Shown: positions 21,041-25,700 of the stretch, in pieces
Numbering within the stretch: position 1 is the first letter of the stretch
Layout of the letters: every line of letters begins with the position of its first letter
Assembly: GCA_022538095.1 (NCBI GenBank)
Contig: JAKYXN010000031.1
Location: forward strand, 1-64,000
Reading direction: 5' to 3'
Origin: Puniceicoccaceae bacterium K14
GTDB lineage: Bacteria; Verrucomicrobiota; Verrucomicrobiia; Opitutales; Opitutaceae
DNA length: 64,000 nucleotides
Made by a program: the position numbers and the translations under genes
Notes under the pieces: generated by a model
Databases searched by the model: none
Seen by the model: only the letters and a program-made list of their open reading frames with translations
What the model was told of the DNA's origin: nothing

Positions 21041-21197
21041 ATACGAATTGAGGGTAAAATTGGTTTGCCTCATAAGTTTTTCGAGGCGAATAAAAATTGT
21101 TATGACATGAATTTCGAGGAATAAGCTGGGGTAGCGTGTATTATTGGTTGTAGAAGCAAGCAAATATACTTTGCTTATTTTTTTACCCACTCACCCC

Positions 21198-22970
21198 ATG
21201 GATGTTAATAGAAGTAAACTGACTAAAAATTGGATAGCGCATTTACTGCGTTGGAATATTGCCTCTTTTTTTTTGTGGGGCACGTATGCTTTCGCTGACG
21301 ATGTCTATCGTGAAGATGCCAAATCGATTTCGAGAGGAAATGAGCTATTTCAAACGAATTGTTCGGCTTGCCACGATTTTAGCAGAGATGGTAGCATTGG
21401 TCCTGGTTTAGGTCGGGTGACCGGAGTTGCTTTTAAATCATGGATAGAGGATTTTATCAGAAATTCTCAGGCGATGGTTGAGGCGGAGGATCTTCGTGCG
21501 TTGAAACTGTTTGATGAATACAAAACTGTAATGCCATCGTATGATTTCTCGGAAGAGGATATGGAGTCGCTACTAGCTTATATCTATTCTGAAAAGCGTG
21601 AGAGGAAGCGCCGACGTTCTCAAGTAGTTCGGCAGGGTGTTATAAGCGATCCAGTAGTAGAATCCGTAGAGCCTTCAGGACTAGGTTTAGTACTTGAGCC
21701 TTTTGTCTGTGTACCTCGAAGCAATCGATTTGCTCCACAGGCGAAGATCAATAAGATGGCTGGAGTAATTGATGGGGAGAAGCATCGCCTTTTTGTTAAT
21801 GATATTCGAGGGTTTTTATATGAAATCGTCGATGGTGAGGCAGTTGCTTTTTTGGACGTCGCTAAGCGTTTTCCAAATTTTATTAGTAAGCCTGGGTTTG
21901 CGACGGGAATGACTAGTTTTGCATTTAGCCCAGCTTTCGAGAAAGATGGGTTGTTGTATACGCATCATGCAGAGACTCCTGCGGGAAAACTCTCAGATTT
22001 TGTTTTGCCGAACAATACGGAGCCAATGTTTCAATACGTTTTAGTTGAGTGGAAGACTGACGAAACTCGAAGCCGTATTCTTGAAGGGCAAGGCCGTGAA
22101 ATAATGCGTATAGATATGTTCGGCACAGCACACGGGGTCCAGGAAATTGCGTTTAACCCCAGTGTGAAAAAAGGCGATGAAGACTACGGAAATATGTATG
22201 TAGGTATTGGAGACGGTTCAGCAAGTTACAAAAAGCGGATGGATCTTTTTGATGGTTTAGGCTTAGTTTGGGGAAAGGTGCTGCGCATCGATCCGAAAGG
22301 GAATAACTCTAAGAACGGGAAATATGGAATACCGCCTAATAACCCTTTTGTTGTTGGTACTCAATTAGAGGCATCGGAGAGTGAATCCTTTAAGCCCCTT
22401 GAAGAAATTTTCGCTTCTGGCGTACGTAATCCAAATACCTTGAGCTGGACGCCAGATGGCAAGCTATTGGTTACGGATATAGGTCACCACCATATTGAAG
22501 AACTTAACTGGGTTGAGAGTGGGAAAGATTACGGTTGGCCCACCTTTGAAGGAGAATTCGAAATCGATTTGCTTAATGATAGGCAGAGGAGTTTGTTCAC
22601 TCGAAAGTCTAATAGCAGGAACGCTGTGGATCCGGTGGTGATGCTTGATCATGATGAAATCGTGGCGATAGCAGGAGGCTTCGCGATTCCGAGTGAAGGA
22701 GAGTTCGGATTGGGTGGGAAGTACGTCTTTGGCGGCATTGCGAATGGACGTGTGTTTATGATAGACTTAGCTGATGTTAAAAAAGGAAGTAGAGCTCAGC
22801 CACGGGAACTGCAATTAATCTTCGAAGGGGAAATCGTTACGGTTTCAGATCTTGTTAAATATCGAAGAGCAGACTTGCGATTTGGCCAGGACGCAGCGGG
22901 TGGACTATATTTAATGAGCAAGACGACGGGGTGTATTTGGGAGATTGTCGGTATCCAGAAAATTGATTGA
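21198..22970 (+). CDS. Cytochrome c fused to PQQ-type sugar (glucose/sorbosone) dehydrogenase domain
   Basis: A 590-residue exported protein. The signal region is near LRWNIASFFLWGTYAFA, with cleavage likely before DDVYRED. A cytochrome c domain follows, with CSACHDFSRDGSIGPGLGR and a likely Met ligand in VMPSYDFSEED. A six-bladed beta-propeller of the glucose/sorbosone dehydrogenase family comes next (HGVQEIAFNPS, GNMYVGIGDGSASYKK, KVLRIDPKGNN, SGVRNPNTLSWTPDGKLLVTDIG, NWVESGKDYGWPTFEGE). The heme would accept electrons from the sugar-oxidising propeller and pass them to the respiratory chain. I chose the ATG at 21198 over a TTG at 21144. It likely forms one set with the two upstream genes. 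Confidence 0.88.
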   Translation: MDVNRSKLTKNWIAHLLRWNIASFFLWGTYAFADDVYREDAKSISRGNELFQTNCSACHDFSRDGSIGPGLGRVTGVAFKSWIEDFIRNSQAMVEAEDLRALKLFDEYKTVMPSYDFSEEDMESLLAYIYSEKRERKRRRSQVVRQGVISDPVVESVEPSGLGLVLEPFVCVPRSNRFAPQAKINKMAGVIDGEKHRLFVNDIRGFLYEIVDGEAVAFLDVAKRFPNFISKPGFATGMTSFAFSPAFEKDGLLYTHHAETPAGKLSDFVLPNNTEPMFQYVLVEWKTDETRSRILEGQGREIMRIDMFGTAHGVQEIAFNPSVKKGDEDYGNMYVGIGDGSASYKKRMDLFDGLGLVWGKVLRIDPKGNNSKNGKYGIPPNNPFVVGTQLEASESESFKPLEEIFASGVRNPNTLSWTPDGKLLVTDIGHHHIEELNWVESGKDYGWPTFEGEFEIDLLNDRQRSLFTRKSNSRNAVDPVVMLDHDEIVAIAGGFAIPSEGEFGLGGKYVFGGIANGRVFMIDLADVKKGSRAQPRELQLIFEGEIVTVSDLVKYRRADLRFGQDAAGGLYLMSKTTGCIWEIVGIQKID

Positions 22971-23137: not shown

Positions 23138-23222
23138 TGGTGCTCAGAGGGGGACTCGAACCCCCACGGCTTGCGCCATACGCCCCTCAAGCGTACGTGT
23201 CTACCAATTCCACCACCTGAGC
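23138..23222 (-). tRNA. tRNA-Leu (anticodon GAG)
   Basis: The 85-nt minus-strand sequence starts GCTCAGGTGGTGGAATTGG and ends with an encoded CCA. The acceptor stem is GCTCAGG/TCTGAGC-like, with a D-loop and an anticodon stem TACGC-TTGAGGG-GCGTA giving anticodon GAG. The extended variable arm is typical of class II tRNA-Leu. The T arm is GGGGGTTCGAGTCCCCC. A terminator follows. The A-plus-T-rich 220 bp upstream (23223-23442) holds its promoter, which I could not pin down. Confidence 0.95.
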
Positions 23223-23398
23223 ATGTGGAAGAAGGCGAAACTGGAAAGTTTTGCAGATATGTAAAGCGTGATTTTAAAGAAAATGAAGATTTCTTCCTAA
23301 AAGGTTGATTATTATTTGCCTTAACGATTAAAACCTCTGCTATTCAAATAATTTTAGACGCCTTAATTCGCCTAACTAAGTAAAAACTATTACACCCA

Positions 23399-23430
23399 CA
23401 AGGAGACGAGCAGTGCACGTTTTCTTTTGA
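23399..23430 (+). promoter_or_regulatory. Strong ribosome-binding site with five-codon leader frame
   Basis: AAGGAG (23399-23404) sits 8 nt before a GTG at 23413. That GTG opens a five-codon frame (V H V F F, stop TGA at 23428-23430) in the same phase as the following gene. The real gene start, ATG 23443, is 38 bp after the AAGGAG. The leader may be translated and coupled to the gene, or it may be chance. Confidence 0.35.
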
Positions 23431-23442
23431 ACTCAGAATCCA

Positions 23443-25206
23443 ATGGAAGAATCCAGTTCACAGGAACCAAAAGACGAATCTTTATCAAACCCAGTAGATT
23501 TGTCTGCTCTTAAAAGTTTTAGTTTCGGGACCGAATGGTCTCCCGCAAGTAAGCCTTCTGGCGGTGGAAACTCATCGAGGTCTGGCAGAAGCGACTCACG
23601 AGGTCCGCGACCAGATCGTAGGCAAGGCGGACGTCCGGCGAGTAGTCGAGATCGTCGTCCTCCTGTAAAGAGGAAGTTCGAAGACGGCAATCAAGGCTCA
23701 GGTCCTGATGGGAATCGAAATGATTCTCGCCCGCCTCGCGACGGTGGACAAAGAGGCTACGGCGGACGCCGTGGAGGTGGAGGCAGGCAAATGCCGCAAC
23801 CTCCTTATGAGAGTCCGGTGTTCAATATTAGCTTTTACCCAGAGGATAACAGTTTCGCTACGATTATCAAAGCGATGCGCACGAATCGCCTCACTTACGA
23901 GTTGTTTGAGGTGTCTAAGATTTTCTTGGACAAGACAGACCGTTTTATCGCGTCGGTCACTCGGAAGCCAGAGGGCGATGAAAAGGCACCGAAAGTATTT
24001 GTATCGATTCCGGATGGAATGCCATTCGCAAGCGAAGAGGATGCTATTTCTCACGCAGTTGGGAATTCTATCGAAAGCTTTTTTGACATAGAAGAAGTTG
24101 AGGTAGAAGCTCCTTCAGGAAACTTTCAGTTTGTGAATCGTTGCTCGATCACTAAGGTGCTACTCGGCCCACCAAACTATCATATGTATGAGCAAGCATT
24201 GCGGGCTCACCATAGTGGACGTTTATCGCATCTATCTTTTGAGAAAGTTCAAAGTTCAGTTGAAACGGTTCGTGAAGAGGAAGTCATCAACGAGTGGCTC
24301 GAATCGATGAAAAAAGCTTTGATCTATAAGTCGAAGCTAGTCGCTGAGGGAGAAGAGCCGAAAGCTTTCAAAACGATTGAAGAAGCTAAGTTTTACTTAA
24401 AAGCAGAACACCGAGCTAAGGTGGTCAAAACGGTTAACTACGCTCGAATCGAAGGTAAGGACTTAGAAAAATTTAAGGATTCAGAAGCTTATAAAGCGAT
24501 GTACGGTGAGCTGTTGCGTCAGCGTAGATTTCCTTTGGATACTGCAAATGCGATTCGTGGACGCATGCGCCGGGAGAAGTTTAGTATCTATAAAAAAGGA
24601 TCTAAGGGCGTAACGTACGTTTGCGCGAGTAAACGAAATTTCAGGCAACCAGGCCAGGTTATGGCAGCTCCGCTTGATAGAATAATCCGTTTCCTCGATG
24701 ATCATCAAAAGATCAAGCAGAAGGAAATGGGTACTGTTTATTCTGAATGGTTGAAGACTGATGCGCCGACTGAGGAGTTTGATGAAAAGAAAATGCTTCG
24801 CGATTTGCATTGGTTGATAGCTGACGGATATGTGAGCCATTTTTCCGACGATACTTTAGTCGCTCAACCAGTGATGGCGAGTACGCCTTCAGCCGCTAAG
24901 AAGCCTGAATCGAGCCCGGAAAAGGTGAAATCTATAAGTGAGCAACCAGCAGAAGCCACATCTTCTGAAGCGACACCTGTTGAACCTGTTCAAGCCAAAG
25001 CCGAATCTCCAGCGGAAGCGAGTTCTGAGGAGGCCTCTGCTGAAGTGCAAGAGACTGAAGCAGTGACTACTGAAGCCGCACCTGAAGCTGATTCCAAATT
25101 AGCAGAAGAAAAGGCGGAAGTTTCGGAGCCTACTGAGGCAACCCTCGCTGAGCCAGTAGAGGTGCCAGAAAGCGAAAAGACGAAGGACGAAGAAGCGAAA
25201 GCTTAA
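23443..25206 (+). CDS. Unrecognised protein: RGG-rich N-terminus, winged-helix-like core, acidic tail
   Basis: A 587-residue protein with three parts. Residues ~1-125 are disordered and rich in Arg, Gly, Ser, Pro (RDGGQRGYGGRRGGGGRQM), resembling RGG boxes of RNA-binding proteins. Residues ~125-480 are globular. They start FNISFYPEDNSFATIIKAMR, include IARIEG-type helices, and contain a stretch (PLDRIIRFLDDHQKIKQKEM to LHWLIADGYVSHF) that looks like a winged helix. The last ~110 residues are Ala/Glu/Pro-rich and acidic. I do not recognise a family; a role with nucleic acid is inferred from composition only. It is monocistronic between tRNA-Leu and a strong terminator. Confidence 0.75.
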   Translation: MEESSSQEPKDESLSNPVDLSALKSFSFGTEWSPASKPSGGGNSSRSGRSDSRGPRPDRRQGGRPASSRDRRPPVKRKFEDGNQGSGPDGNRNDSRPPRDGGQRGYGGRRGGGGRQMPQPPYESPVFNISFYPEDNSFATIIKAMRTNRLTYELFEVSKIFLDKTDRFIASVTRKPEGDEKAPKVFVSIPDGMPFASEEDAISHAVGNSIESFFDIEEVEVEAPSGNFQFVNRCSITKVLLGPPNYHMYEQALRAHHSGRLSHLSFEKVQSSVETVREEEVINEWLESMKKALIYKSKLVAEGEEPKAFKTIEEAKFYLKAEHRAKVVKTVNYARIEGKDLEKFKDSEAYKAMYGELLRQRRFPLDTANAIRGRMRREKFSIYKKGSKGVTYVCASKRNFRQPGQVMAAPLDRIIRFLDDHQKIKQKEMGTVYSEWLKTDAPTEEFDEKKMLRDLHWLIADGYVSHFSDDTLVAQPVMASTPSAAKKPESSPEKVKSISEQPAEATSSEATPVEPVQAKAESPAEASSEEASAEVQETEAVTTEAAPEADSKLAEEKAEVSEPTEATLAEPVEVPESEKTKDEEAKA

Positions 25207-25265: not shown

Positions 25266-25700
25266 CTATTTTGCTTCTATCAGTCGAGAATCGTTATCCG
25301 TTATCGAGATATTGAGAGACAGAAAAACCGACCATGGAAGCTCCCCCAACTTGCTTGGCCATTCGATCGCGAGGCAGAAAGGGGATACTAGAAAATCTTC
25401 CAGCATCAGTTCATCGAAAATATCAATACTTGGCTCGAGTCGATAGGCGTCCATGTGGACGAGATTCCGATCTCCGGAGTAGGTTTGGTAGATATTATAA
25501 GTCGGGCTGGTGACGATCGCCTCAATATTCCAGGCTTTGGCAAAGCCTTTGACAAAAGTTGTTTTACCGGCACCGAGGTCACCTTCTAGGGTTATGACAG
25601 CGTCATTGGGCAACTCTTTTGCGAGTTCTGTTGCAACGGATTGTAAGTCCGCGTCGGACCTAGCGGTAACTCCCTGAGCGAGTTTATCTAAGATGTTCAT
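25266..25700 (-). CDS. tsaE: tRNA threonylcarbamoyladenosine biosynthesis ATPase TsaE
   Basis: A 144-residue P-loop protein with Walker A GDLGAGKTTFVKGFAKAW at about 40. The family motifs SPTYNIYQTY and HMDAYRLE follow, and CLAIEWPSKLGEL lies near the end. TsaE supports the TsaB-TsaD complex in making t6A at position 37 of ANN-decoding tRNAs. Its start overlaps the thiL end by 17 bp, so the genes are co-transcribed. The window also holds tsaB (38492-39160), and mtaB, which modifies t6A further. Confidence 0.95.
   Translation of the reverse strand: MNILDKLAQGVTARSDADLQSVATELAKELPNDAVITLEGDLGAGKTTFVKGFAKAWNIEAIVTSPTYNIYQTYSGDRNLVHMDAYRLEPSIDIFDELMLEDFLVSPFCLAIEWPSKLGELPWSVFLSLNISITDNDSRLIEAK

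Follow-up and report, generated by a model that had tools for sequence, protein, structure and literature searches.

We analysed a stretch of 64,000 nt from Puniceicoccaceae bacterium K14 (contig JAKYXN010000031.1, positions 1 to 64,000; hereafter the window) around a forward-strand ORF for a protein without a name. The features of the gene, its leader and its product are collected in Table 1. Residues are numbered from the start codon, and core positions from residue 121. The gene had been described as monocistronic in an earlier note made from the sequence alone, and judging from the arrangement of its neighbours this is probably correct: the tRNA-Leu(GAG) gene is divergent upstream and an ORF at 25266–25700, tsaE-like when named by eye, is convergent downstream. 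A downstream tsaE/thiL/CPBP-like trio (names again given by eye) is convergent in 13 of 20 relatives. The tRNA-Leu gene is divergent upstream in 26 of the 46 Opitutales loci scanned and co-directional upstream in 4 more, with some of the 46 clipped by contig ends and two, L002 and L040, representing one contig. A GAG tRNA-Leu is missing from all 20 distant loci, and by eye no operon was shared among the neighbours in these loci. Four of them (L110, L113, L115 and L117) have, by eye, one and the same transglutaminase-like protein (LEKYSSA...) as their divergent neighbour. Another ORF of the window, at 21144–22970, carries a CxxCH haem motif followed by a PQQ sugar-dehydrogenase-like domain, also assigned by eye.

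Table 1. Features at the locus, in window coordinates
Feature	Position	Strand	Basis
tRNA-Leu(GAG), divergent, frequent neighbour in Opitutales	23139..23223	-	tRNA/Rfam scan
Putative promoter TTGATT-17-TTAAAA	23305..23333	+	sequence, alignment
Predicted leader hairpin AAGGAGACG-(9 nt)-CGTTTTCTT, 9 contiguous pairs (two G-U), then TT	23400..23426	+	folding
Five-codon frame GTG CAC GTT TTC TTT TGA, start in hairpin loop, not conserved	23413..23430	+	sequence
ORF, 587 aa, unnamed Verrucomicrobiota protein family (ATG at 23443, stop ends at 25206)	23443..25206	+	ORF call, homologues
Conserved short N-terminal motif, residues 1-37, DLSALKSFSFGTEW, net charge -4	23443..23553	+	alignment, charge count
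Arg/Gly/Pro-rich tail, residues 38-120, net charge +12	23554..23802	+	composition, charge
N-terminal core, residues 121-305: beta/alpha region, C2H2 remnant, C..T.LLGPPNYH segment	23803..24357	+	alignment, model
Basic (+15) winged-helix-like segment, residues 306-402 (core 186-282)	24358..24648	+	predicted secondary structure, charge, conservation
C-terminal winged helix, residues 403-478 (core 283-358)	24649..24876	+	fold search of model
Acidic Ala/Glu-rich tail, residues 479-587, net charge -18	24877..25203	+	charge count

Homologues were found in 49 of the 57 genomes of the window's order and in 177 of 288 genomes of the phylum; among genomes of good quality the numbers are 43 of 44 and 168 of 251, the own genome being counted each time. 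A scan with six peptide patterns taken from the window protein recovered 17 homologous loci in named records, including Pelagicoccus. Since all second matches within a genome adjoin the first match in the order-level search (57 genomes), the gene is single-copy in this set. The plasmid search gave no match. No Pfam or NCBIfam family reached its cut-off for the window protein, and a search of the PDB by sequence gave a best E of 0.071 for it and no match for one distant member. Two low-scoring matches were taken as chance, an NCBIfam acyl-CoA synthetase (E 0.02–0.04, 12–13 bits against a cut-off of 701) and, for one distant member, Pfam Actin_micro (E 0.0014; 18.3 bits, cut-off 27). Nothing on this protein was found in a literature search, most subscription papers lying outside its reach. 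A protein carried by almost every good-quality genome of the order and nameless in both family databases is a knowledge gap for the whole phylum. The PVC signature protein CT421.2 is likewise described as clade-specific and uncharacterised, with a length of 53 to over 80 aa as against 587 aa here (PMC3444138); the comparison is by description.

The N-terminal motif recurs in distant members: by eye, a like motif ending in W, e.g. LDLNFVPTWARKPP, precedes the R-rich tail in 19 of the 20 distant loci, and a regular expression for the W-ending motif matched 37 of 67 members. The earlier note had called the protein RGG-rich. An Arg/Gly-rich tail is indeed present, but residues 38–120 contain only one RGG and are better described as R/G/P-rich. 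RG pairs at 53, 104 and 110 make up three of the four in the protein; the fourth, at 372, lies inside the core. The 90 residues directly before the core consist of 20% R, 22% G and 2% I+L+V+M. In the 65 of 67 examined members whose tail is 40 residues or longer (a few of the frames begin too far upstream), the mean composition of the tail ahead of the core is 22% Arg, 17% Gly and 3% Ile+Leu+Val+Met, and the number of RGGs ranges from 0 to 4 per protein among 17 members listed. Eukaryotic RGG/RG-rich RNA-binding proteins (FUS and others) have an Arg/Gly-rich low-complexity tail. The window protein has such a tail in common with them but differs in its single RGG and in that no Pfam domain was found. 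At the other end, the acidic Ala/Glu tail proposed earlier was recovered with 26% D+E, 19% A and a strongly negative charge. At least 15% D+E was found in 57 of 60 family C-tails of 30 aa or more; the distant members L101, L109, L111 and L113 are without an acidic tail.

Structure prediction returned a confident model of the core (pLDDT 85.9, pTM 0.67), which agrees with the claim of a folded core with a winged-helix-like segment. Predicted core residues 283–358 follow the H-(S)-H-H-S-S order of the winged-helix fold and match winged helices in VIA with Z from 8.5 to 6.7 among the best 50 matches. The rmsd is mostly 2–3.5 Å among the winged-helix matches listed, the best being MecI (Z 8.5, rmsd 5.8) and Cul1 (Z 8.3, rmsd 2.0). 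As a Z near 8 is what VIA calls common, the winged helix is assigned as a fold and not as a family. The likeness to winged-helix proteins such as MecI, MarR, Fur/Zur and the Cul1 WHB is thus one of fold; in contrast to these, the domain found here has no sequence family match, carries a net charge of -5 and is embedded in a larger core with tails. The preceding segment (core 186–282) is modelled as helices and a hairpin resembling a second winged helix, for which the fold search listed no match. Foldseek against the PDB gave no match at E ≤ 0.001, either for the core or for core residues 1–190 alone. A separate model of core 1–190 reached a pLDDT of 74.3, about 60 over its first 70 residues, with a zinc finger at Z 3.1 as the best VIA match. 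Because that model is weaker, the missing fold match for core 1–190 is no evidence of a new fold. In a 17-row alignment C114, T117, PPN 123–125, H127 and Y129 of the core are invariant and form a conserved patch.

At core positions of about 65–86, 8 of the 20 hand-picked distant members have an intact C-x2-C-x12-H-x4-H motif of the C2H2 type, which occurred in none of 4000 shuffled sequences. Pfam zf-C2H2 (PF00096) matched one of five proteins tested below its cut-off (E 0.021, 15.7 against 25.2 bits). The intact motif is absent from all 47 Opitutales loci, including the window, whose protein has lost the cysteines; H84 of the core, by column position the finger's first histidine, is invariant in the 17-row alignment when inspected by eye. 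As read from the alignments, the C2H2 finger is decayed or lost in Opitutales, where H84 appears as a remnant. The decay from the distant members to Opitutales offers a natural series for structure-function work.

Taken together, this architecture makes it likely that the protein binds nucleic acid. What the earlier note had proposed as an RNA- or DNA-binding protein fits the winged helix recognised by fold, the +15 segment, the C2H2 motif of some distant members and the R-rich tail that occurs phylum-wide, and to this extent the claim stands. Counting against binding is the Cul1 WHB among the VIA matches of core 283–358, since winged helices also mediate protein contacts.

The leader was analysed by folding and comparison with relatives. 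The window and all 10 other loci of group A, which comprises the 11 loci closest to it, share a TTGATT element about 110–140 nt ahead of the ATG; in the window a consensus promoter scan called none at its threshold. If this element is the promoter, the hairpin lies in the leader, as TTGATT is upstream of it. Folding of the 55 nt upstream of the ATG gave a hairpin in many family members. In the window it is predicted 16 nt upstream of the ATG with AAGGAG as its 5' arm and GTG in the loop; in group A a hairpin of other sequence (in several, GGATGCC...GGCGCC and a U-run) occupies the same place.

We compared the best stem between -45 and -3 in 39 family loci and, as controls, in 179 further genes taken from the window and from 20 relatives, stems being unselected and scored against dinucleotide shuffles. 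The mean z was 1.06 in the family and 0.03 in the controls (Mann-Whitney p 1e-8; p 3e-7 with 28 thinned loci). The stem ended 9–18 nt before the ATG in 82% of the family loci and 31% of the control genes, whose starts are crude (first ATG, ORFs of at least 180 aa, 70-nt gap) and could dilute the control signal. Family leaders therefore carry excess hairpins just before the start codon. Locus by locus, p ≤ 0.05 was reached in 11 of 39 with a median of 0.12 (8 of 39 with fewer shuffles), and the window's own hairpin, at p 0.065, is not individually significant. Among 24 pieces picked by eye for pairing from 28 loci, 91% of cells pair, as against 79% in shuffles and 37–47% when slid, and all six pairs show changes on both sides; loops are 3 to 10 nt long. 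Because the pieces were chosen for pairing, these values are descriptive and not proof, the comparison of 39 with 179 being the unbiased test. Outside the family the signal is weak (mean z 0.41 over 16 loci; highest in L072, L043, L012, L015 and L023), so the hairpin is lineage-specific whereas the protein is phylum-wide. The exact group-A pattern matched twice in 38 genomes, once at this gene and once elsewhere, and thus no regulon was seen. The match away from the gene is L118 (G005:C1:3095096-3095118).

As a whole, these results are best explained, though we hold this tentatively and short of even confidence, by a nucleic-acid-binding protein whose leader hairpin gates ribosome entry and is subject to feedback from the protein itself. 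The single-copy, phylum-wide protein would bind nucleic acid. Its short N-terminal motif, perhaps a docking site, and the Arg/Gly tail would be joined to a core. This core would consist of a C2H2 finger, which has decayed in Opitutales, then a basic winged-helix-like segment and finally the C-terminal winged helix; the acidic tail would follow. The gene would be transcribed from its own putative promoter opposite tRNA-Leu(GAG). In the window's family the leader would end in the hairpin, with a stem stopping some 6–21 nt before the ATG, the usual Shine-Dalgarno place; there it could gate the entry of ribosomes and serve as the target of negative feedback. Autogenous control by the protein is speculative and the feedback step is held at low confidence. 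Autogenously controlled ribosomal-protein leaders have a structured leader next to the start codon. The likeness here is that a putative RNA-binding protein also has a structured leader by its start codon; the differences are that binding is putative and that, of the Rfam families, only the tRNA and no leader attained its gathering score in the stretch. The anatomy of the protein and the leader hairpin raise two testable questions, namely which ligand the protein has and whether it regulates itself.

The main rival to feedback is attenuation. The hairpin may be a terminator-like attenuator, its stem and U-run ending most transcripts before the ATG unless the protein, the ribosome or another factor brings about anti-termination, a reading that we consider possible, if rather doubtful. 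An invariant TTT comes after the stem in group A, with 4–7 U in 12 relatives aligned, and the hairpin lies downstream of the TTGATT element common to this group; in group B, however, the U-run is 0–5 long and often broken, and a terminator scan did not call the window hairpin.

A passive hairpin, connected with initiation independent of a Shine-Dalgarno site or with mRNA stability and unrelated to the protein's activity, is likewise conceivable but somewhat doubtful. SD-like matches of at least 4 bases are scarce anyway, occurring in 17% of the 179 controls (with their crude starts) and in 1 of 39 family loci. The same 179 genes show no excess of hairpins, however, so the hairpin is not a general trait of these genomes.

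The protein might instead be a nucleoid or transcription factor that binds DNA, and one variant of this reading makes the inverted repeat its DNA operator; the reading seems unlikely to us. Winged helices and C2H2 fingers are mostly DNA-binding folds, and MecI, MarR and Zur are among the VIA matches. Against the operator, the sequence of the repeat changes while its pairing appears to be kept and the spacer varies over 3–10 nt, unlike a fixed DNA site; for this reason the hairpin more likely acts as RNA. The objection leaves DNA binding without this operator untouched. Quite improbable, in our view, is a phylum-wide RNA-binding organiser that in a eukaryote-like manner combines a docking motif and an Arg-rich tail with a C2H2 finger, two winged helices in tandem and an acidic tail, condenses with RNA and limits its own production by binding the start-codon hairpin, which would evolve fast in sequence but be conserved in structure; condensation by the protein is speculative.

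The preferred gating hairpin overlaps the five-codon frame to which the earlier note had drawn attention. As it stated, the best ribosome-binding site serves this frame: AAGGAG (23400–23405) lies 7 nt upstream of GTG, while no Shine-Dalgarno site precedes the ATG at 23443. The frame stops 12 nt upstream of this ATG. It shares the reading frame of the main ORF, from which its TGA separates it. AAGGAG followed after 4–10 nt by a start occurred in 0.22% of 5000 dinucleotide shuffles of a 100-nt stretch, and any of six SD-like words with a start in 1.3% of shuffles of the same stretch. In the window alone the frame is thus unlikely to arise by chance, yet it is not conserved: the window is the only one of 39 family loci with an AAGGAG-GTG frame at that place. 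Locus L067 has an unrelated AGGAG...GTG at -79. The suggestion that the frame is a control element did not survive this check of AAGGAG-GTG conservation, and as a conserved control element the frame is rejected, with 0 of 38 other family loci sharing the place. Control of translation by the frame, with ribosomes re-initiating 12 nt further on at the ATG, has in its favour the well-spaced AAGGAG-N7-GTG, its rarity in shuffles, the ATG without its own site and a set of relatives that includes no second genome of the same genus, but is very improbable given the frame's absence from all 38 other loci and the pairing of AAGGAG inside the predicted hairpin. An RNA hairpin occupying the place of a Shine-Dalgarno site is a better interpretation of the leader than a coding leader frame.

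Two further elements were noticed in this region. A second inverted repeat at 23354–23375, terminator-like on the minus strand, lies between the tRNA-Leu and the 587-aa gene of the window. In group-B leaders, e.g. L041, L056 and L068, a CCAAGC-like stretch recurs by eye between promoter and hairpin.
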